Both the position numbers and the translations under genes were made by a program. Below the pieces are notes generated by a model that was not told the DNA's origin, did no database searches, and worked only from the letters and a program-made list of their open reading frames with translations. From Candidatus Undinarchaeales archaeon SRR5007147.bin71 (lineage in GTDB: Archaea; Undinarchaeota; Undinarchaeia; Undinarchaeales; Undinarchaeaceae), in NCBI GenBank assembly GCA_014189675.1, contig DVAE01000025.1, forward strand, positions 1-16,207: DNA of 16,207 nucleotides, given 5' to 3'. Shown piece after piece: positions 6,980 to 16,207 of this stretch (within the stretch, counting starts at the first letter, position 1; each line of letters opens with the position of its first letter).

Positions 6980-7621
6980 TTATTGGGGCTGGACTGTATT
7001 AACTACTTGCTCGGCGAACTCGACAAGAGTACCTTCACAATAATCTTTTATCTTGTCAACATTTGAGACGCTTATTGTTCCTGTTTCTTTCAGTAGAGAT
7101 GTCGGAATATCACAGTCCATTGACCTCCCCTTTACAGTTATACCAAGAACAGAGCCTGCGTCCTCTATTCTTACAAAGACTTTGCAATTCTCTCCCTTCA
7201 TCCCCTTAACTTCAGTGTAGCTCACTGCCATGCTATCTCCCTCTCCCCTTGAGGTAAGTCCTGTCGCCGGGGAGCAGGACATCAGAGCAGATTTAAGGCA
7301 GGCTTCGTCATTTCCACATTCCTGCAGTTCTACTCCTTTCCAAACTCCGGACTTGGCTACGAATGTCACAAGAACAATTAATAAAATGACTCCGAGGACT
7401 ATTCCGGATATAAAAAATATTCTCTTCGTTTTTGTGTTCTTCACATCTTTCGTTGTTTCTGCAGTCTGTGGTCTGACTTTTTTCGGAAGAGCTTTGGAAA
7501 TAGCAGCTTCGACCTCAATGGATTTCCACCCTGTCTCATCAAGAGCCTTGCGCACCTCGTCCGGGCTGTGTCCGGCAGCCAGCTGTTCCTTTACGTAGTT
7601 TACAATTTCCTTTTCAGTCAT
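6980..7621 (-). CDS. Single-pass membrane protein with UBA-like N-terminal helical domain
   Basis: A 213-aa protein, not assigned to a named family. Residues 4-42 form a short helical repeat with a conserved Gly-Trp (EQLAAGHSPDEVRKALDETG then W). This resembles the UBA-like 'L..G.s.deir.aL...GW' unit found at the N-terminus of several archaeal membrane proteins. A basic linker (47-67) and one hydrophobic segment (68-89) follow. Residues 90-213 are probably outside the cell and contain six cysteines (102, 108, 116, 146, 170, 195), enough for three disulfides, with the motif CGNDEACLKSALMSC at 102-116. The ATG overlaps the end of pelA by 8 bp, so it is cotranscribed and probably translationally coupled. 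Why a surface protein is tied to pelA is unclear. Confidence 0.8.
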   Translation of the reverse strand: MTEKEIVNYVKEQLAAGHSPDEVRKALDETGWKSIEVEAAISKALPKKVRPQTAETTKDVKNTKTKRIFFISGIVLGVILLIVLVTFVAKSGVWKGVELQECGNDEACLKSALMSCSPATGLTSRGEGDSMAVSYTEVKGMKGENCKVFVRIEDAGSVLGITVKGRSMDCDIPTSLLKETGTISVSNVDKIKDYCEGTLVEFAEQVVNTVQPQ

Positions 7622-8687
7622 TTTTTATTTTGAATCTCAGTGTCGCCCCGATTCCTCCGAGGCTCTCAAACTGTTCAGATTGTTCATGGGATCCGCTGAT
7701 TATTAGTATTTCTCCTTTCATCTCTCGTATATCTTTTATGAGTGTCTCAACTTCTGTAATTCCTTCTATCTTCGATTTCTTCAGCCTTGCATTTGAAACC
7801 ACAAGAGTGTCTATCGCTCCCATATTCCTAGCTTCCATAACTTCTTCTATTCCGCGGACAGCGAGTCCTCCATCTTTACTTATTTCGACAAAGAATTTTT
7901 CCAGGAATTGCATTTCTATCCTAATTTTTGTCTCCTTTACAATGCGATCTATAATCCCGCGCTTTACAATCTCCTGAAGGCCCCGATTTCCTCCGGCGCT
8001 TATGTGCTCGAGAGCTACTTTGTCGACGAGTTTTGGGTATTTATTTTTCAGAAAGGCTCCGAAGTCGTCCCTGATAAATCCTGGTCCGGCGACAACAGCG
8101 CGGTCGATGTCAGGATAGTTCTCAATAGCCTTGGCGACTAGATGGAAAAATTTGATTGTGTCTGACTCGTGGGCTTCCTCTTCTTGCTTTCCGGATATAC
8201 TCTCGCTGACTTCTCCTAGTTCCTGCACTCCGTAATCTCTGAGCATTCCAATAGCTCCATGACCGTCTTCGATTGCGAGAAGAAGTATTTTTGAGCGGAC
8301 TGCCTTTGCGGCCTCATCAAGTCTGAGAAGCTCGGAAGGAGTCCACTCAAGTTTCTGTAGTGTAACTGTCATTCCGGTTTTCAGATTCAGCGTATGTGTG
8401 ACTCCAGTAGGCACCGTTTCTGGACCTGCTACTATATTACCTGTCACTCTGAGCCTGTCAACTGTCTTGTCAAATTCAATATTTTCTGCTTTCACTGAAA
8501 TTAGAACTGTGTCTTTCTCCTGTCTCTCCGCTCTTTTCGTATCTCTATTTAATTCAAGCCTTCTTTTTGTCAGAGCCCTGACTATATTGCCAGTTTCCAT
8601 AAGCTCTGAAAGGTACCAGAGGTCATCAGGCACTTCCAGTTTCAAATCAATACGACCTTCTTTGAGGACTTTTTTCAGGATTTTCAT
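7614..8687 (-). CDS. pelA: mRNA surveillance / ribosome rescue protein Pelota
   Basis: A 357-aa archaeal Pelota (Dom34) homologue of full normal length. With aABCE1 and a GTPase partner (aEF1A in archaea) it splits stalled ribosomes in no-go and non-stop decay. It has the three-domain eRF1-like order: N-terminal Sm-like domain with PDDLWYLSELM (20-30) and NIVRALTKRR; a central domain containing AVVAGPGFIRDDF; and a C-terminal domain ending in ISGSHEQSEQFESLGGIG plus ATLRF (330-352), a hallmark of Pelota. The GGQ peptide-release motif of eRF1 is absent, as expected. It is transcribed from the bidirectional TATA palindrome at 8714-8725 with a leader of only a few bases, and is followed by an overlapping membrane-protein gene. 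Confidence 0.97.
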   Translation of the reverse strand: MKILKKVLKEGRIDLKLEVPDDLWYLSELMETGNIVRALTKRRLELNRDTKRAERQEKDTVLISVKAENIEFDKTVDRLRVTGNIVAGPETVPTGVTHTLNLKTGMTVTLQKLEWTPSELLRLDEAAKAVRSKILLLAIEDGHGAIGMLRDYGVQELGEVSESISGKQEEEAHESDTIKFFHLVAKAIENYPDIDRAVVAGPGFIRDDFGAFLKNKYPKLVDKVALEHISAGGNRGLQEIVKRGIIDRIVKETKIRIEMQFLEKFFVEISKDGGLAVRGIEEVMEARNMGAIDTLVVSNARLKKSKIEGITEVETLIKDIREMKGEILIISGSHEQSEQFESLGGIGATLRFKIKND

Positions 8688-8746: not shown

Positions 8747-8800
8747 ATGGCCGTCAATGAAATGCTATTCAGGAGCCCAGTTCGGAGGATGATTTATTAA
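8747..8800 (+). CDS. Possible 17-codon leader ORF ahead of the large surface gene
   Basis: ATG at 8747 begins a 17-codon frame (MAVNEMLFRSPVRRMIY) ending in TAA at 8798-8800, immediately followed by the ATG of the 842-aa protein (TAAATG). The ATG sits exactly at the transcription start predicted from the palindromic TATA box, so a leaderless mRNA would begin with it. It is in the same frame as the large gene. A GGAGG at 8784-8788 could recruit ribosomes to the downstream start (12-nt spacing, longer than ideal). It may be a leader peptide with termination-reinitiation, or chance. No homology is recognised. Confidence 0.35.
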   Translation: MAVNEMLFRSPVRRMIY

Positions 8801-11329
8801 ATGGCTCTGAAAGATATTTTCTCCTTAATAGTTCTCGTTGTTGTTCTTATTTTCTCTATTTACGGAGCACTTTCCATGTCAGGCTGGCTCTGGCTCGTTA
8901 CAATTGGAGTTCTTCTCTATATATTAAAGAAATATGGACTGCCAATTCTTCTAAAATCAATCCCTTGGGTTGGAACAGCTTATTGCGGATGGAGGGCCTT
9001 CAAGGAGTTCCAAGAAGCTGATAAAACAGAAGCAATGAAAGAGCTAGCACTTGCTGCTGGAGCACTTTTCCTTCCAGGTATGGGTCTTGTCTCTATTATA
9101 ATAAAGAAAAGTGATGATGAAAAAGAAGGCTCAGAATCTATTGGAGACGCTATTACAGAATTTGCCGACGCCTCAAGAGAACAGGCTGAAACAGAGAGAG
9201 AAATAGCCCGTGAGCAGGAAAGAATACATTTAATTGAGGAGCAAAGAGAGGCTCTAGAAGCTGATGAGGCAGGAACTGCTGTTCCTCCGTCTTCTGCGGT
9301 GGAGGGAGAAGAAGGTGCAGTTCCCAGGGAAAAACCATCAACTTGGAGTAGATTTTCTAAATGGCGTAAAAAGAGAAAACTCGATAAGGCAGAAGCGGAA
9401 ATAATTGATCCGGATAAAGCGCTTGTCCCTACAGAAGCTCACTATATGTTTGTTGTAGGACTTTCCGTAGTTTTGCAGGCATTCTATTTCAGAGCCGGTC
9501 TATTCTCCAATGCCTGGCTTGGAACTGCACTCCTCATTTTGATAGTTACTGCTCTTATACTGCTGGTAGACCGCAAACTCTATGGTTGGTACGGTGCTCT
9601 TGACCTCAGCTATGGTCAGAAGACTGCCTTAGTAGCCGGTCTGGCTGTTATTGTTATGCTTATATCTATCTCTCTAAATCCTCTCATAGCGGCGGACTTT
9701 GATGCAACTATGGACCAGATAAAAGCTGTTCCAGGGCATATTGGGGATGGTATTGTAGACAGCTGGTACTATGTCAAAGCGAAGATACTTCCTCCCACTG
9801 TTGCCGGAGTTGCAATAAGAGGCCCAATGGATTTCGAGGCCTGTTACCCCTTCTGCGTCACTGAAGGCGGTAGTAAAAAGGAGATATGGCAGGGTTTCGA
9901 GATAACGACTCTTAAAATGATTCCTAGTTCAGTCTACGATTATCAGCCATTTAGCGTAGTTACAGAATTCCAGAACAAAGGAGTTGGCGATACAACTTTC
10001 GAACTTCCACTGTCAAGCCTTGGAGCTCAGACTGTCATTGAATTCCAAGGAGAGGTAATAAACTGTGATATATTTGCTTTGGTACGAAAGACTATTCAGG
10101 ATGTAGCTGGGGAATTATCTGGAGAAGATTACTACAATACAAACCTCTGTCTTTGGTCTTCTCCTCTCGCACAAAAAGGCAACGGTAATGTCACTCCTGT
10201 TGTAACTGGAGCATGCAGAAGCCAGATATTTGATGACGATGGCTATCCGATTGCTCTTGATGACGGAAAAGAAGTCAGCGTTTCCTATTCTGAAACCACA
10301 GACGCCGAGGCTTCATACAATGATTCTGAAAATCTTCTTACACTTCCGGTTGGTCACCATCTAGGCTTTGATTTCTCTGGAGAAGCCAGGGTTATTGAGG
10401 ATGAATCCGGAGATCCAAATTCTACTCACTCTATTCCTTCAAGTTACGGACTCATTCAGAAAACTGAATGCACTCTAAAACCTCAAGATATAACACAAAT
10501 CCGCTGGTATGGAATGAAAATCGGCGGAGCAAATCTCGGTGTCGGAGATGTCCAGCAGCCGGATATCATGCTTACAGTAAATTACACATTCCTTCCAAAG
10601 ACGGACTTAGTCGGAACTCTTGTTATACAGGATGTCCAGACTCAAGTTACAGCAACATCTGCCGAGCAGAAAATCGTCAATAAAATAAGCAAGAGCTATT
10701 CTCCTGCAGGACCTCTCATGATGGCTTTCGGAACTGCAGAAGAGCAGATTATAGCCGAAGTTCCTACTCTCTTTCTTGTCCAGCTTCGGAACAAGGGTTC
10801 AGGCATTGTCCAGAAAATTGAGCAAGACAAGATGGTGATATATATTCCTACAGATTTCACAATAGCAAGGAGTGGCACAGCATTCTGCGACTTTGTTAAG
10901 AATGATTCAAATGACCTTGACTCTTACTTTAGAGAAGGCTTTGAAAACAATAATGACGGAACTCTCACCGATCCGACTTCAGGCACTATATATAGGACAT
11001 ACACTCCTGGAACAAAAGCAGCAAGAAGTTCTCTTACTGACATAGAGTCAGGAAGCAATGTACTGAAAAACCCACCATTCGGTTGTCTCCTAAGAGCTCC
11101 GAAACTTGCTGAAGGCCGTGAATTTGAAACTTATGATTTCAGAGTCCGACTTAAGGAATATATATATCAGGAAGCCGGTGTAGAAAAAATCACTATATAT
11201 GGAACCTGCGCAGATGCCTGCGGAACTGCAACTGCTTGCTCCTGTGATACTTTTTATGAAGAGGGTATGGATACAATAAATGACTACTTTAATACAATGA
11301 CTGGCGAGTGGACCAATGGCACAGGATAA
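8801..11329 (+). CDS. Large multi-pass surface protein with coiled coil and two extracellular beta modules
   Basis: An 842-aa protein of unrecognised family. Hydrophobic segments lie at about 6-24, 29-45, 82-101, 213-232, 238-256 and 275-297. Between the third and fourth is a charged coiled coil (118-155, rich in E, R, Q) and a basic linker (SRFSKWRKKRK, 183-193), so this loop is probably cytosolic. Residues 298-842 are probably outside. They hold two CARDB-like beta modules: one from ~383 (FSVVTEFQNKGVGD, with C422 and C557) and one from ~653 (FLVQLRNKGSGIV, with C696 and C762). The exterior ends in a cysteine cluster (C803, C807, C813, C815). The second module matches the C-terminal module of the lipoproteins encoded next, suggesting one complex in which this is the membrane-spanning anchor. 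No C-terminal membrane anchor or sorting signal is present. Confidence 0.82.
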   Translation: MALKDIFSLIVLVVVLIFSIYGALSMSGWLWLVTIGVLLYILKKYGLPILLKSIPWVGTAYCGWRAFKEFQEADKTEAMKELALAAGALFLPGMGLVSIIIKKSDDEKEGSESIGDAITEFADASREQAETEREIAREQERIHLIEEQREALEADEAGTAVPPSSAVEGEEGAVPREKPSTWSRFSKWRKKRKLDKAEAEIIDPDKALVPTEAHYMFVVGLSVVLQAFYFRAGLFSNAWLGTALLILIVTALILLVDRKLYGWYGALDLSYGQKTALVAGLAVIVMLISISLNPLIAADFDATMDQIKAVPGHIGDGIVDSWYYVKAKILPPTVAGVAIRGPMDFEACYPFCVTEGGSKKEIWQGFEITTLKMIPSSVYDYQPFSVVTEFQNKGVGDTTFELPLSSLGAQTVIEFQGEVINCDIFALVRKTIQDVAGELSGEDYYNTNLCLWSSPLAQKGNGNVTPVVTGACRSQIFDDDGYPIALDDGKEVSVSYSETTDAEASYNDSENLLTLPVGHHLGFDFSGEARVIEDESGDPNSTHSIPSSYGLIQKTECTLKPQDITQIRWYGMKIGGANLGVGDVQQPDIMLTVNYTFLPKTDLVGTLVIQDVQTQVTATSAEQKIVNKISKSYSPAGPLMMAFGTAEEQIIAEVPTLFLVQLRNKGSGIVQKIEQDKMVIYIPTDFTIARSGTAFCDFVKNDSNDLDSYFREGFENNNDGTLTDPTSGTIYRTYTPGTKAARSSLTDIESGSNVLKNPPFGCLLRAPKLAEGREFETYDFRVRLKEYIYQEAGVEKITIYGTCADACGTATACSCDTFYEEGMDTINDYFNTMTGEWTNGTG

Positions 11330-11330
11330 T

Positions 11331-11345
11331 AAAGTATATAAGTTA
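11331..11345 (+). promoter_or_regulatory. TATA box for the first lipoprotein gene
   Basis: AAAGTATATAAGTTA begins just after the stop of the large surface gene. Its centre (~11338) is about 29 bp before the ATG at 11368, predicting a leader of at most a few bases. The lipoprotein can therefore be transcribed separately from the gene before it. Confidence 0.6.
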
Positions 11346-11346
11346 T

Positions 11347-11357
11347 TAGCCCCCTTA
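11347..11357 (+). promoter_or_regulatory. C-rich element downstream of TATA (copy 2)
   Basis: TAGCCCCCTTA differs from the element at 8731-8741 in one base and lies in the same place between TATA box and start. A looser C-run (TATCCCTACCC, 13652-13662) lies in the same place before the third lipoprotein gene. Confidence 0.4.
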
Positions 11358-11367
11358 AGAAGTCATA

Positions 11368-12723
11368 ATGAAAAAGTCAACCACAGTACACAATAAATTC
11401 TTTCTAACTCTCGTTGTTCTTTCAGCCACACTTCTTATTGCTGGCTGCACAGGCGGAGACACCGGAGCAGCTGTCGGAACTGCAGGCGCGGATTCACTTG
11501 TACTTTCTATAGACACAGAAGGAAGAGACTTGTTTGACTCTAATGAAGCATTTCTTATCTCAGTCCAGGCAGAGAACATTGGACCTGTCAATACTGAAAA
11601 TGTTGAAGTAAGACTTCAAGGATATGACGGTATCAGCGGAACAAGCCTTGGAACTTACGTTTCACTAAGTCCAGCTACACTTGAGAGACCAAACAGTGAA
11701 GAAGGTCTTGCAGGTGGAGTAGGCAACATAGAGTGGGATGTAACAGCCCCATACGTTTCAGCAACATCCCCTGACAGAGAAATTTCACTAACAGCAGCTG
11801 TCAGATATGACACAAAGAGTATAGTATCACAAAAGGTTGTAATCGCAGAAGCATCTCATCTTACAGAGCTAGAGGCGCGTGGAGAGAGAGTTCCAGCATC
11901 ACCTACTCAGGAAGCCAGGAATGGTCCGGTAGGTATTGCAATGGAAGCACCAGCACCATATGTCAGGATGACAGGCTCCGAGGACGATTTCATACTAAGA
12001 GTTACAGTATACAATGACGGAAGCGGAACTGTCTACGACTCTACAGGTGAGAGAGACCGAGTTTCCTCTATAAGACTGAGCGTTCCTTCAGGTTTGACAG
12101 TTGACGAGTCCAAGTGCGACTTTGACCTAAGGACTTCAAACAGCCTTGACGGAGTAAAAGTCCTTTTGATAGACTCAAGCTCAAGCTCAGCAAAGCAGAA
12201 CAAGCTCCGCCTCACAGAAGGCGGCTACACAAGAACTGTTCAGTGCCACTTGCAGTCCTACTCTGACAGAGTCAATGGCTACAATACATTCGCGATAGAA
12301 TCTGAGGTTTCTTATAGCTATGTACAGTCAGTTTCCACAAACCTTGACATCATCGGAACTTCTGAAGGCGCACTCGCTCTCGAGATTACTGACCCAGCAA
12401 CTACTTCACAGGGAACCTGGACATCCACAGCAAGCGAAACAATAACATTCACTCTAACATACCAAGGAGAACCTGTAACAGATACAAACCCGTCCTTTGA
12501 TGTTACAGGTGCAAGTTATCTGAACTTCACTCTTATCAACGGTTCTACTGAGCTAAATGTTCCGGTTTCAACAAGCGGAAACATCTATTCAAACGGTGTA
12601 TGGTCTGTAACAATTACAGCACCAAGTGGAACTACATCTGACCACATAACTCTCAGAGGAACAGCAAATTACCTCGGAGAGACAGCTACTGATAGAAATG
12701 TCAACTCAGTCGAGCTGCAGTAA
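11368..12723 (+). CDS. Surface lipoprotein 1, two beta modules plus C-terminal Ig-like domain
   Basis: A 451-aa predicted lipoprotein: basic N-terminus, hydrophobic segment, lipobox LIAGC with Cys27. Module 1 (about 42-160) is CARDB-like (AFLISVQAENIGPVNTENV) and ends in AAVRYDTKS, matching the YDY-S signature of the other three lipoproteins. A linker with PVGIAMEAPAP (187-197) leads to module 2 (about 205-332): FILRVTVYNDGSGTV, then CDF (Cys250), VQCHL (Cys293) and the closing strand EVSYSYVQS. Residues ~335-451 are an extra Ig-like domain (FTLTYQGEPVTDTNPSFDVTG) absent from the paralogues. Thr, Ser and Ala are abundant, as in exposed proteins. It has its own promoter. The function is unknown; a structural or adhesive surface role is inference. 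Confidence 0.87.
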   Translation: MKKSTTVHNKFFLTLVVLSATLLIAGCTGGDTGAAVGTAGADSLVLSIDTEGRDLFDSNEAFLISVQAENIGPVNTENVEVRLQGYDGISGTSLGTYVSLSPATLERPNSEEGLAGGVGNIEWDVTAPYVSATSPDREISLTAAVRYDTKSIVSQKVVIAEASHLTELEARGERVPASPTQEARNGPVGIAMEAPAPYVRMTGSEDDFILRVTVYNDGSGTVYDSTGERDRVSSIRLSVPSGLTVDESKCDFDLRTSNSLDGVKVLLIDSSSSSAKQNKLRLTEGGYTRTVQCHLQSYSDRVNGYNTFAIESEVSYSYVQSVSTNLDIIGTSEGALALEITDPATTSQGTWTSTASETITFTLTYQGEPVTDTNPSFDVTGASYLNFTLINGSTELNVPVSTSGNIYSNGVWSVTITAPSGTTSDHITLRGTANYLGETATDRNVNSVELQ

Positions 12724-12742
12724 AAGAGTAGATAACAAAGCT

Positions 12743-13633
12743 ATGAAACACTCAAGAGTTTTGCCTTTAATATTACTTCTCTTAGTAGTTTCTATATCCG
12801 GATGTGCCGGAAAGGACACAGAAGCCCCTCCTTCAGGCGATGGCGTGGCTGTGAGAAGCTTTCAGTCTGATTTTGGCGATGTTTATTCCGGAGAGTCCGC
12901 CAGTATTACACTTGTTGCTGAAAACAGGGGAGATTTCACAGCATCTAATGTAAAGGCGAAGCTCATTAGATCTGGCTCATTCACTAACACAACAGCTCTG
13001 GAAATCACTGGCTCCGACTTAGGTATTCCTCTTGGCGATACATACGCTAGTGATGCATTCTTCTGGGAGCTTGAGGCGCCCACTATACTTCAGGACAGAA
13101 GTGAGGAAGTTCAGGCAGAAGTTTCATATGATTACAAATCAAGCGCAGTATCTACTGTACACTTCGTTCCTCGTGATTTTTTGAGAGAGGCAGGACTTGG
13201 AGCCTACCCTGACGCGTCCAGTAGCAGTCGTTCTCCTATTTTCATAGATATAGTAGCTAATCAACCCGTTCAGGTAAGAGGAACAGGTAATATGTCAGTC
13301 CGTTTCACTGTAATACTTGTTAACAAGGGTGGCGGAAAGGTGGAGAGTCTTACTACAATAGCCTCAGACAATAAAAAAGGAGACTGCACAGAGGCCTTTG
13401 GATGTATTGACAACATCACAGTACGAGGTCTTGGTCCTGGTTGTACTGGTTTCAATAATAATGTAATTGGCGTTAAACTCATACAGGGCAAAGAAGGAAG
13501 GAAGAACTTCGACGTAACATACAACATTAATGACGACAGCGTTTCAACATCCTGCCAGCTTCAAGTCACAGCAGAATACCGCTACAAACTACTCTCTCCT
13601 ATTGAGAGCCTGATGGTCCTAAAATCGGACTAA
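12743..13633 (+). CDS. Surface lipoprotein 2, two beta modules
   Basis: A 296-aa predicted lipoprotein. The frame is open from an ATG at 12698 inside the previous gene, but that start would put 15 polar residues before the signal. ATG 12743 gives MKHSR, a hydrophobic core and lipobox SISGC (Cys21), so I use it. Module 1 (about 35-142) has SITLVAENRGDFTASNVKAK and ends in AEVSYDYKSSAVS. The linker includes SPIFIDIVANQP (164-175). Module 2 (about 180-296) has VRFTVILVNKGGGKV, cysteines at 215, 221, 234 and 271, and the closing strand AEYRYKLLS. It is the minimal two-module form, 19 bp after lipoprotein 1 with no clear promoter, so probably cotranscribed with it. Confidence 0.85.
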   Translation: MKHSRVLPLILLLLVVSISGCAGKDTEAPPSGDGVAVRSFQSDFGDVYSGESASITLVAENRGDFTASNVKAKLIRSGSFTNTTALEITGSDLGIPLGDTYASDAFFWELEAPTILQDRSEEVQAEVSYDYKSSAVSTVHFVPRDFLREAGLGAYPDASSSSRSPIFIDIVANQPVQVRGTGNMSVRFTVILVNKGGGKVESLTTIASDNKKGDCTEAFGCIDNITVRGLGPGCTGFNNNVIGVKLIQGKEGRKNFDVTYNINDDSVSTSCQLQVTAEYRYKLLSPIESLMVLKSD

Positions 13634-13646
13634 AAATAAATATAAA
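13633..13646 (+). promoter_or_regulatory. TATA box for the third and fourth lipoprotein genes
   Basis: AAAATAAATATAAA is centred at ~13640, about 28-30 bp before the ATG at 13670. It directly follows the stop of lipoprotein 2 and predicts a near-leaderless mRNA for the lipoprotein 3-4 operon. Confidence 0.55.
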
Positions 13647-13653
13647 CTCCTTA

Positions 13654-13670
13654 TCCCTACCCATTAGGGA
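13654..13670. repeat. Perfect inverted repeat at the lipoprotein 3 start
   Basis: TCCCTA (13654-13659) and TAGGGA (13665-13670) are exact inverted copies separated by five bases. The right arm ends on the A of the start codon. If the mRNA starts near 13667 as the TATA spacing predicts, the repeat would not fold in RNA, so a DNA operator is the better guess. Confidence 0.45.
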
Positions 13671-14578
13671 TGAAATCTAAGCTCTTACTTACAATTCTCA
13701 TTATTTCTCTTGCTCTATCTATATCGGGCTGCACAGACATAGTTGACAAGTTTCCACTGCCTACTGAAGAAGCAGAAGTAAGTTCGGCTGGCTTCGGTAA
13801 GTCACTGACTTACGGAATCATCATAAGGGACTTTAGTCCCTCTCAGTTAAGTGTTGACTCTGGCGACGAGGTCGAGCTCGGTCTTGATATTGAGAATGTC
13901 GGTGCTCATGATGCAGAAAATATTGCAATTAATCTTTTCCAGAAAAGTGGTTTCTCAATAGTGAGCGAAAACTCTGTTTCTGCTACTTCCTTGCTTTCCC
14001 CTGACCTGAAGTTTGAACAGCCCGGAGAACGCCTCTACAGTTACTGGGTAATGGCTGCCCCAAGCGTTTCAGTAAATCAGCAGAAGTTTTTGAAAGCAAG
14101 GATAAGTTATGATTACAGCTCTCTGGCGACATCAAATATTCACCTTGTTTCCAGGGACATTTACAATGAGCAGGGTCCCGGAGCCTTCTCTATACAGAGT
14201 ACAACTTCCTCAGCTCCTGTTAGTTTCGCAATTTACGATGTCCCTCCTATAAAGGTTTCATCTTCTCCTCTAGGGAGTGTGGATGTAAGCCTCAATATAG
14301 TAATAAGAAATACAGGCTCCGGTTCGGTCAGTGGTAATATACAGAATTTTGTGGTCTATACTGTGCGCGGACCAGTCAGAAATGATGTAACTAGTGGCTG
14401 TTCTGACGATGTTAGTGGTGGCGAGGTATCACTCTTCGGAAAAACACAGGAGCGCAGTGTCAAGTGCGATCTCAGCCTGGACTACCTCGAGGACATCACT
14501 TCCTACACAATTGAAGTCCTTGGAGATTATACATACATAATGGACACAGACCCGGTAAGTATATTGGTGAAAGAATGA
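13670..14578 (+). CDS. Surface lipoprotein 3, two beta modules
   Basis: A 302-aa predicted lipoprotein with a hydrophobic signal and lipobox SISGC (Cys21). Module 1 (about 49-160) begins IIRDFSPSQLSVDSGDEVEL, continues with GLDIENVGAHDAENIAINLF, and ends in ARISYDYSSLATSN. The linker contains SAPVSFAIYDVPPIK (181-195). Module 2 (about 201-302) has LNIVIRNTGSGSV, the cysteine pair Cys244 and Cys266 (SVKCDLSL), and the closing strand LGDYTYIMDTDPVSILV. It is the closest visible match to lipoprotein 4 outside that protein's inserted domain. It has its own TATA box, and its stop overlaps the start of the next gene (ATGA), so genes 3 and 4 form an operon. Confidence 0.87.
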   Translation: MKSKLLLTILIISLALSISGCTDIVDKFPLPTEEAEVSSAGFGKSLTYGIIIRDFSPSQLSVDSGDEVELGLDIENVGAHDAENIAINLFQKSGFSIVSENSVSATSLLSPDLKFEQPGERLYSYWVMAAPSVSVNQQKFLKARISYDYSSLATSNIHLVSRDIYNEQGPGAFSIQSTTSSAPVSFAIYDVPPIKVSSSPLGSVDVSLNIVIRNTGSGSVSGNIQNFVVYTVRGPVRNDVTSGCSDDVSGGEVSLFGKTQERSVKCDLSLDYLEDITSYTIEVLGDYTYIMDTDPVSILVKE

Positions 14579-16203
14579 AAAACGCAATTTTCCTGATAAC
14601 ACTGGCAGTTCTCGTAACAGGCTGTACAGGAAGTCCTGATGTTTCAGACTTATTAGGTTACCCTGGAGTTTCAATAACAGAATTTTATTCACTTTCCTCA
14701 ACAGTTATGGAAGGCGGCGAGATAGACCTTCTGCTACAGGTTCAGAATACAGGACATTTCGATGCAGTAGATGTTGATGTAATGCTCTTCGGTTGTGGAA
14801 CTTCAGAAGAATCTGATGGCGCGACTTGGGTCTGCGATGAGTACTCTGACTTAGAAGCTAAACTCTCAAAACCAGATTTGGAGCTTAATGTCCCCGGCGA
14901 GATAGCCGAGAAGCAGTTTAGACTGACAGCACCTGACAATATAATTGGAGGAAAAGTTTCACACACCTTCCTTTCCCGTGTAAGATATGATTACAGTACA
15001 TCAGCCGGCGCTGATGTAGTTCTGAGTTCCTTCGAAAACTGGAAGGCCAGCAATCAGCAGATTGATGTCGGAGCCTTGAACTCCTACAGCACTGATGCTC
15101 CAATGAGTATAGAAATAAATGTCCCCTCAAAACCTGTTATTCTTCCTGCCGATTCAAATGAGGACAAGTTTATCACAGTCGTAGTTACTGTAAGGAATTC
15201 TGCAAATGGCATAATAGAGGGGGGAAAGCTAAATGAGATAAGCCTATACTTTAATCCAGAATTTCTAACGCCGATGCCAATGATGGGAACTATGTTCTTG
15301 TCAGACGAACTGTATACAGGTGATCTAGGTGGTCTTGCCGGCGCTGACAGAGTGTGCCAGCAGGATGCGGAGGAAACCGGCTTGGGCGGCGCCTGGATAG
15401 CAATGCTCAGTGACGAGAATGTGAACTTGGGAGACAGGGTACCGTCTGGACCTTATTATAATATTAGGGGAGAGCTTGCTTACGACGGAAGTTCAAATCT
15501 CTTTGATGCTTCTCTGAATGGTGCAGATTACGCCTATACTGCAGACGGTTCTCGTGTTCCATCAGAAACTAGGTTTAAGTCGTGGGGCTCTACTTGTTCT
15601 GGAAAATGGATGGTTACATCAGAGGGCTGGGTTGATGTATGCGCAGAGTGGAATGACGACGAAACAACCTGTAATGATCCTCCTCCTATAGAAAGCAGTG
15701 AAGGATGGTCTGAGATCAAATACTGCACTTGGGATGACGGCTACTATGAGGCTGAACCTGAATTCTGGTCTGGTACAAAAAGGGATGGGACTTATTCTAA
15801 ATTTGAAACAATTAACTATGGATGCAATTCCTGGACAAGTAATTCTCCTAACGAGAACGGAGTATACGGAAAGTCAAGAACCACATCTAGCATCAGTTCA
15901 ATTTTCAGCGACTCTTTTATGGCTTCCTGCGATTCTGAGTACCGTATACTCTGCATGAATGGTGACAGGTCGGGTTTCCACAGAATGGAATCTGTCCATT
16001 ATGAAGGTATTGGTGATACACTTTTCGTGGACACTCCTGATGTACTTAATCTCCTAGGTTTGGCAAGCCAGTGGAAAACTTACAAGGCAAGATTCAAAAT
16101 AAAAAATCTACAAGGACTCATCCAAGAAGTTATAAGCTTCAGCGCTGAAGCCGACTATACATACATAGAGGAGGGGCAGGCTACTGTCGTAATTGAGGAA
16201 TGA
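14575..16203 (+). CDS. Surface lipoprotein 4 with inserted DUF1554/endostatin-like domain
   Basis: A 542-aa predicted lipoprotein with lipobox LVTGC (Cys17). Module 1 (about 31-152) has IDLLLQVQNTGHFDAVDVDV, an extra Cys74/Cys87 loop, and the SRVRYDYSTSA signature. Module 2 begins at ~198 (FITVVVTVRNSANGIIEGG) and resumes at ~478, ending in EADYTYIEEGQATVVIEE. Between them, residues ~240-462 resemble DUF1554/endostatin-type C-type-lectin-fold domains: FLSDELYTGDLGGLAGADR, CQQDAEETGLGGAWIAMLSD, FWSGTKRDGTY, YGCNSWTSNSPNENGVYG and SCDSEYRILCMNG. Such domains often bind ligands on bacterial and animal surfaces. The two module-2 cysteines of the paralogues are absent. The ATG overlaps the stop of lipoprotein 3; GGTGA at 14566-14570 is a good ribosome-binding site. 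Confidence 0.87.
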   Translation: MKNAIFLITLAVLVTGCTGSPDVSDLLGYPGVSITEFYSLSSTVMEGGEIDLLLQVQNTGHFDAVDVDVMLFGCGTSEESDGATWVCDEYSDLEAKLSKPDLELNVPGEIAEKQFRLTAPDNIIGGKVSHTFLSRVRYDYSTSAGADVVLSSFENWKASNQQIDVGALNSYSTDAPMSIEINVPSKPVILPADSNEDKFITVVVTVRNSANGIIEGGKLNEISLYFNPEFLTPMPMMGTMFLSDELYTGDLGGLAGADRVCQQDAEETGLGGAWIAMLSDENVNLGDRVPSGPYYNIRGELAYDGSSNLFDASLNGADYAYTADGSRVPSETRFKSWGSTCSGKWMVTSEGWVDVCAEWNDDETTCNDPPPIESSEGWSEIKYCTWDDGYYEAEPEFWSGTKRDGTYSKFETINYGCNSWTSNSPNENGVYGKSRTTSSISSIFSDSFMASCDSEYRILCMNGDRSGFHRMESVHYEGIGDTLFVDTPDVLNLLGLASQWKTYKARFKIKNLQGLIQEVISFSAEADYTYIEEGQATVVIEE

Positions 16204-16207
16204 AAAA
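16200..16207 (+). CDS. Start of a probable further gene (cut by window edge)
   Basis: ATG at 16200-16202 overlaps the TGA of lipoprotein 4, and the sequence continues AAAAA to the edge, giving ATG AAA then two bases. The junction is identical to the one at 14575 between lipoproteins 3 and 4 (ATGAAAAA). A further lipoprotein gene beginning Met-Lys is therefore likely, but only two codons are visible. Confidence 0.4.

Follow-up and report, generated by a model that had tools for sequence, protein, structure and literature searches.

A conserved archaeal gene cluster for a polytopic membrane protein and tandem two-module lipoproteins: a candidate surface apparatus with exchangeable heads

The DNA analysed here, referred to as the window (16,207 nucleotides), is the entire contig C10 of a genome of 623,718 bases in 39 contigs. 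Its size, contig number and GC match those given for the Undinarchaeales genome SRR5007147.bin71 (0.62 Mb, 39 contigs, 42.0% GC) in the paper naming the Undinarchaeota (PMC7414124), and from these statistics we infer that the host belongs to the marine Undinarchaeota within the DPANN archaea. It is closely related to 'archaeon UBA55' and 'Euryarchaeota archaeon ARS1358'.

The part of the cluster within the window comprises the genes for the membrane protein A and the lipoproteins L1-L4, all of which lie on the forward strand with short or overlapping junctions (Table 1). Comparison with orthologues indicated that L2 starts at 12743 rather than at the listed position 12698, which lies too far upstream. 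At the opposite end of the window, two adjoining genes on the reverse strand (2-1195 and 1234-2409) encode membrane proteins with an N-terminal group of transmembrane (TM) segments and a long charged domain; neither product had a convincing family match, and both are retained in the related genome G005.

Table 1. Positions of the cluster genes and their parts in the window.
Feature	Position	Strand	Basis or remark
pelota	7614..8687	-	divergent neighbour of A; flanks the cluster in many other archaea too
A, polytopic membrane protein, 842 aa	8801..11329	+	ORF; also matched in 4 other Undinarchaeota genomes
A ectodomain module 1, residues ~352-631	9854..10693	+	hhalign of A profile against lipoprotein profile
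A ectodomain linker SYSPAGPLMMAFGTA and module 2, residues ~632-804	10694..11212	+	Cys pair CDF...GCLL
L1, lipoprotein, 451 aa, two-module unit and extra C-terminal domain	11368..12723	+	unit profile match; orthologues
L2, lipoprotein, 296 aa, minimal two-module unit	12743..13633	+	unit profile; weak CARDB match in module 1
L3, lipoprotein, 302 aa, minimal two-module unit	13670..14578	+	profile and AlphaFold2 model
L4, lipoprotein, 542 aa, module 1 common with sister species, module 2 of another type	14575..16203	+	orthologue comparison
Exchanged module-2 cassette of L4, codons ~202-514	15178..16117	+	identity break against sister-species L4
Lectin-like (DUF1554/endostatin-like) insert in L4 module 2, limits approximate	15301..15978	+	Pfam DUF1554
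Final 90 nt of the window	16118..16207	+	identical to contig C11, where they close a thrombospondin-3-type L4 ahead of L5 and L6

A preliminary description of the window had reported four consecutive lipoproteins with common motifs. Indeed, L1-L4 each have a signal peptide and a lipobox (IAGC, ISGC, ISGC and VTGC, respectively) from which lipid attachment is predicted, and a lipobox-like motif is also present in most of their relatives. Moreover, the four proteins follow the architecture module 1, GP-linker, module 2, and the reported signatures are present, i.e. xYDYxS (RYDTKS in L1), a GP/AP-x-x-I linker and a final Y-x-Y. In BLASTP comparisons, the window proteins matched non-orthologous paralogues of sister genomes with E=1e-10 to 1e-19, and the homology among the lipoproteins is therefore not due to chance. 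A profile built from 32 sequences of the unit recovered its own members L1-L3 with E-values between 4.5e-76 and 1e-82; for L4, which is outside the profile and interrupted by an insert, the E-value was 1e-43. As had also been claimed, the add-on domains differ between the subunits: L1, the orthologues of which in other families are 42-44% identical, ends in an extra domain (residues ~334-451) without a Pfam match, and L4 has a lectin-like insert.

The AlphaFold2 model of L3 (pLDDT 87.7, pTM 0.79) consists of two beta-sandwich domains joined by a linker. In comparisons with solved structures using Foldseek and VIA-align, the matches were to generic single Ig-like domains (best Z 10.8 over ~100 of the 302 residues), and no two-domain relative was prominent. 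Similarly, module 1 gave weak matches to Ig-like adhesion domains, i.e. CARDB in L2 (15.9 bits) and DUF11 in L3 (14.9 bits), both of which are below the respective cut-offs of 22.7 and 24.6 bits. Neither Pfam nor NCBIfam has a family that covers the complete two-module unit, and a sequence comparison with the PDB gave no significant relative. A generic Ig-like fold, the best module 1 matches of which are CARDB and DUF11, could equally be that of structural surface proteins, and A and the lipoproteins might accordingly form or anchor an S-layer-like coat of the archaeon itself, to which the add-ons would be incidental decoration. We consider such a structural envelope scaffold unlikely on the evidence of gene conservation and of the recurring heads described below.

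In A, residues 1-290 contain ~6 hydrophobic segments with a charged stretch between them and are followed by a large ectodomain. The preliminary description had assigned two copies of module 2 to A; instead, the ectodomain aligns with the whole lipoprotein unit, i.e. module 1, linker and module 2 (hhalign E=1.5e-11), and the segment SYSPAGPLMMAFGTA corresponds to the linker. Because the alignment extends over both halves, A represents a copy of this unit that is held in the membrane. The structure check suggested earlier supported two Ig-like sandwiches in L3 and gave a poor model of the A ectodomain (pLDDT 46.8, only five related sequences); the fold of the latter therefore rests on the profile alignment. 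As A matches the same two-module profile as the lipoproteins, the unrelated folds that had been named as a possible refutation were not seen. In the A protein of genome G001 (L016:1-2490), module 2 is followed by three Cys-rich CGAQNxxxHNDxLDxxxCC repeats without a Pfam match.

Comparison of six Undinarchaeota genomes showed that the gene order A-L1-L2-L3-L4-(L5)-L6 beside pelota is kept in two sister species, in one of which A is divided between two contig ends, and that the same A-to-L6 order is present in a Naiadarchaeum-like genome from another family of the phylum. The conserved order claimed earlier is thus borne out within the genus and beyond it; by contrast, the four lipoproteins taken for the full set are not the full set, as the window ends at L4 while L5 and L6 of the same genome are located on contig C11. 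L5, which is 39% identical to L4 over module 1, appears to have arisen from L4 by a duplication at the level of the genus. Identity to the Naiadarchaeum-like proteins is 35-44% for each position compared with ~20-35% between positions. Moreover, dN/dS was 0.08-0.31 for the cluster genes tested compared with 0.11 for pelota, and the tested paralogues are under purifying selection. Position-specific orthology together with constrained paralogues supports the previous suggestion of specialised subunits, and one A with three to six divergent, constrained paralogues fits fixed subunits better than a coat made of a single abundant protein. The preliminary description is thus confirmed in part, the two module-2 copies in A and the end of the set at L4 being corrected. 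G003, a relative within the order with a 78% complete genome, had no clear copy of the cluster. In G004, L2 is split; we set aside a true frameshift because the break coincides with a run of N at an assembly gap.

Within L4, codons 1-200 have 85-100% DNA identity to the sister species; at codons ~202-514, the identity to sister L4 drops abruptly to ~60% or the sequences become unalignable. Contig C11 starts at this point of divergence and carries a module 2 with thrombospondin-3-like calcium repeats, which is 75-98% identical to that of the sister species, followed by L5 and L6. Hence, the same genome bin holds a lectin-type and a thrombospondin-3-type module 2 of L4 that rejoin at an identical 3' end. 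These represent population alleles or, alternatively, a tandem duplication. The two versions rejoin at the contig break. A chimeric assembly is spoken against by the reading frame of L4, which is intact across both junctions, and by the lectin-type module 2, which aligns with other L4 proteins. The lectin-like insert noted previously was confirmed as a DUF1554/endostatin-like domain (DUF1554, 29.0 bits against a cut-off of 27.5 with the best stretch at residues 246-281; Endostatin, 22.8 bits and under its cut-off), with the refinement that it lies inside a module-2 cassette differing from that of the sister species. This domain resembles the endostatin-like/DUF1554 domain of the Leptospira lipoproteins LenA-LenF (NF047482, NF047483); however, L4 scored far under the cut-offs of the NCBIfam LenA/B and LenF families, and in L4 the domain sits inside an Ig-like module of an archaeal lipoprotein.

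Beyond the phylum, a profile of the unit (A5) identified full-length, strongly scoring copies in tandem sets in ~40 archaeal families. The carriers of strong two-module matches mostly have genomes of 0.5-1.5 Mb, and the small genomes and the gene context suggest that the unit is spread DPANN-wide; the weak matches that this profile gave in numerous further archaea (E ~1e-3 to 1e-9) were attributed to general Ig-like similarity and not counted. At least two tandem lipoproteins are encoded in 55 of 70 loci and at least three in 38, and in six loci (L032, L033, L084, L088, L098 and L114) only one or two lipoproteins are kept and no A was detected. The preliminary description had named scattered or lost genes as a refutation; the membrane protein and tandem lipoproteins recur together in many families, with G003 as a relative without a clear copy. 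The ectodomain was detected directly by the lipoprotein profile in ~20 A-type proteins, and the remaining A-type proteins were assigned from position and topology. A direct profile comparison of Undinarchaeota A with A of family f21 gave no match, and the A profile of the phylum matched set A7 weakly and over module 2 only (E=1.3e-4). Because direct alignment fails while Undinarchaeota A and f21 A each match the lipoprotein profile, the distant A proteins are tied together by the shared unit and gene position.

The recurrent neighbours among the 70 loci are pelota (30 loci), a protein here referred to as SP380 (34), a DUF63 membrane protein (23; Pfam 165 bits) and a PHP-domain gene (20), and the usual order is pelota on the opposite strand, SP380, A, in some cases DUF63 on the opposite strand, the lipoproteins and in some cases PHP. 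SP380 has ~380 residues, a single N-terminal TM segment and repeated beta-rich segments, and is encoded just before A in many lineages. Its profile found the protein in 87 of 394 other archaea. Of the 83 genomes with strong matches to the lipoproteins, 73 encode SP380, compared with 14 of the 311 genomes without such matches (Fisher, 1.6e-53). Counted by family, the co-occurrence has P about 1.5e-21, a count compiled by hand from tables, kinship being otherwise uncorrected. SP380 was not found by profile in the Undinarchaeota. Among the 70 loci, large CARDB/Ig-like proteins are often encoded downstream (14 and 11 loci), which, together with the many subunits per cluster, is what a structural scaffold would also lead one to expect. 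Across lineages, the cluster is flanked by housekeeping genes, i.e. pelota, a PHP-domain/EndoQ-like gene, the RFC small subunit, eIF2-alpha and PAC2, suggesting an old and stable location.

Gram-positive VirB6-type proteins carry hydrolase domains, and a polytopic base with a large ectodomain and, in some A proteins, a C-terminal SLT or M23 domain recalls these proteins, but Pfam gave no VirB6 family match. A could accordingly be the VirB6-like part of a channel for secretion or for transfer of DNA or protein, with an external wall-cutting domain and the lipoproteins as outer collar; moreover, an earlier study placed a secreted DPANN family next to a component predicted to act in secretion (PMC6393860). 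However, when the four genes flanking the cluster on each side were scanned for P-loops in the 70 loci, no ATPase proved to be conserved; a replication-factor-C-like gene, present in ~9 of 70 loci, was the sole P-loop gene that recurred there. In addition, the number of TM segments varies widely among A proteins, and there is as a rule no pilin set in the cluster. With no conserved ATPase in the cluster, a transfer system is not supported, and we regard this reading as improbable. In type IV secretion/VirB systems, a VirB4/VirB11-type ATPase is encoded with the channel proteins; no conserved gene of this kind was found within four genes of the cluster in the 70 loci. The predicted archaeal secretion or membrane-remodelling complex of arCOG01314/arCOG02884 combines an ATPase of the MoxR type with a vWA protein and a membrane-anchored protein that resembles flavodoxin (PMC5898192); the ATPase and vWA protein of this complex have no conserved counterpart around the A-lipoprotein cluster, as P-loop and MIDAS scans of the 70 loci gave a single MIDAS match (L100) and no conserved ATPase.

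Five of 39 A-slot proteins end in a peptidoglycan-hydrolase domain that scores over the curated cut-off, i.e. SLT (L119, 62.7 bits; L095, 32.4 bits), glucosaminidase (L118, 56.6 bits; L122, 35.2 bits) or M23 (L029, 67.0 bits), and the other 34 have no recognised hydrolase. Moreover, L3 of the Naiadarchaeum-like genome (L017:8560-10041, G002:C2) ends in SLT (30.7 bits); the phylum's six genomes gave no other SLT match. The catalytic motifs (Glu, GLMQ, HxH) are intact in each hydrolase head. In the 65 cluster-bearing genomes, the two A-slot glucosaminidase domains are the only ones over the cut-off; SLT occurs at ~40 places in 28 genomes and M23 over the cut-off at 16 places in 11 genomes. A rough estimate, for which each genome was assumed to have 1,050 genes, puts the expected number of SLT and glucosaminidase domains together at ~0.02 among the 39 A-slot proteins, compared with 4 seen (P about 1e-8). 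Thus, wall-cutting domains from three families have entered the A slot in separate lineages. The genome of the window has no SLT or glucosaminidase match, and its only M23 match is sub-threshold and lies elsewhere in the genome; for this lineage, the case therefore rests on the lectin-like and calcium-repeat heads found in its genus. In G129, a 1464-aa ORF with SLT (G129:C3:50109-50507, reverse strand) lies ~10 kb from the lipoprotein cluster and is probably the A protein of that genome.

That three families of peptidoglycan hydrolases recur at one place, in archaea in which peptidoglycan is unexpected, argues against heads that merely decorate an S-layer-like coat. DPANN archaea are thought to rely on scavenging, and the lectin-like, calcium-repeat and hydrolase heads might serve this dependence in a complex for nutrient acquisition, in which lectin-like heads would catch polysaccharides or wall fragments and hydrolases would release muropeptides or sugars without a specific partner. 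Among the conserved neighbours, however, there is no recurrent transporter-like family apart from the DUF63 membrane protein, and we give this alternative a low probability.

Altogether, we see nearly an even chance that the cluster encodes the Undinarchaeota form of a conserved archaeal surface apparatus, anchored in the envelope and equipped with exchangeable binding or lytic heads, probably for partner contact. In this apparatus, one copy of the unit would be held by polytopic A, the presumed membrane base, and three to six lipid-anchored copies would lie beside A on the outer face of the membrane. The proteins would form one complex, in which paired Ig-like domains may provide reach as well as contacts among the subunits. 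The heads, i.e. lectin-like domains, thrombospondin-3 calcium repeats or peptidoglycan-cutting enzymes, are added to the C terminus of A or, in single lipoproteins, either within module 2 or behind it, where they would meet an outside surface, presumably that of a partner cell. To our knowledge, peptidoglycan is not expected in archaea of this kind, and because it is foreign to them, the hydrolase heads would point to the wall of another cell; the lectin or calcium-repeat heads would point to the glycans of a partner. The most likely work of the apparatus would then be to hold and, in some lineages, to open locally the envelope of another cell. We propose more tentatively that this is an undescribed, ancient surface machine of small-genome archaea, in which a membrane base and fixed lipid-anchored two-domain subunits present exchangeable heads that engage and locally open partner envelopes, those of bacteria included.

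Cultivated DPANN archaea are contact-dependent ectosymbionts (PMC11291902), and archaeal peptidoglycan hydrolases, as shown in another archaeon, can kill bacteria and have prominent homologues in Nanoarchaeota (PMC12352652). For the question of how DPANN archaea attach to and open their partners at the molecular level, the cluster supplies candidate genes in dozens of lineages, some of which have complete genomes, so that the question becomes testable in co-culture. In agreement with the preliminary description, literature searches of limited coverage found no described cluster of this composition. We regard only the assembly as new; its parts (Ig-like domains, lipoproteins, SLT and M23) are ordinary, and some of them may individually have drawn attention earlier. 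In Pacearchaeota and Woesearchaeota, large SLT-type proteins, which have been proposed to act on bacterial walls, likewise place SLT on large surface proteins of small-genome archaea (PMC8204110), and an overlap in members with the cluster proteins is possible; however, these are a protein family and not a gene cluster, whereas in the present cluster A or a lipoprotein can carry SLT as one among several exchangeable heads. Similarly, cls.004306 (NEQ255) is an uncharacterised, DPANN-wide secreted family located beside arCOG02487 (Makarova et al. 2019, PMC6393860), and is likewise without an assigned function and adjoins Ig-like S-layer-type proteins. This family may be SP380 or one of the lipoproteins, but it was catalogued as a single family, and no cluster that combines A and tandem lipoproteins with hydrolase heads was described for it. 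Finally, the N termini of SP380 in some lineages (L118, L119, L122 and L128) have a KGQ- or KAQ-like segment that is class III-signal-like and recalls archaeal pilin precursors; the segment is missing in other lineages.
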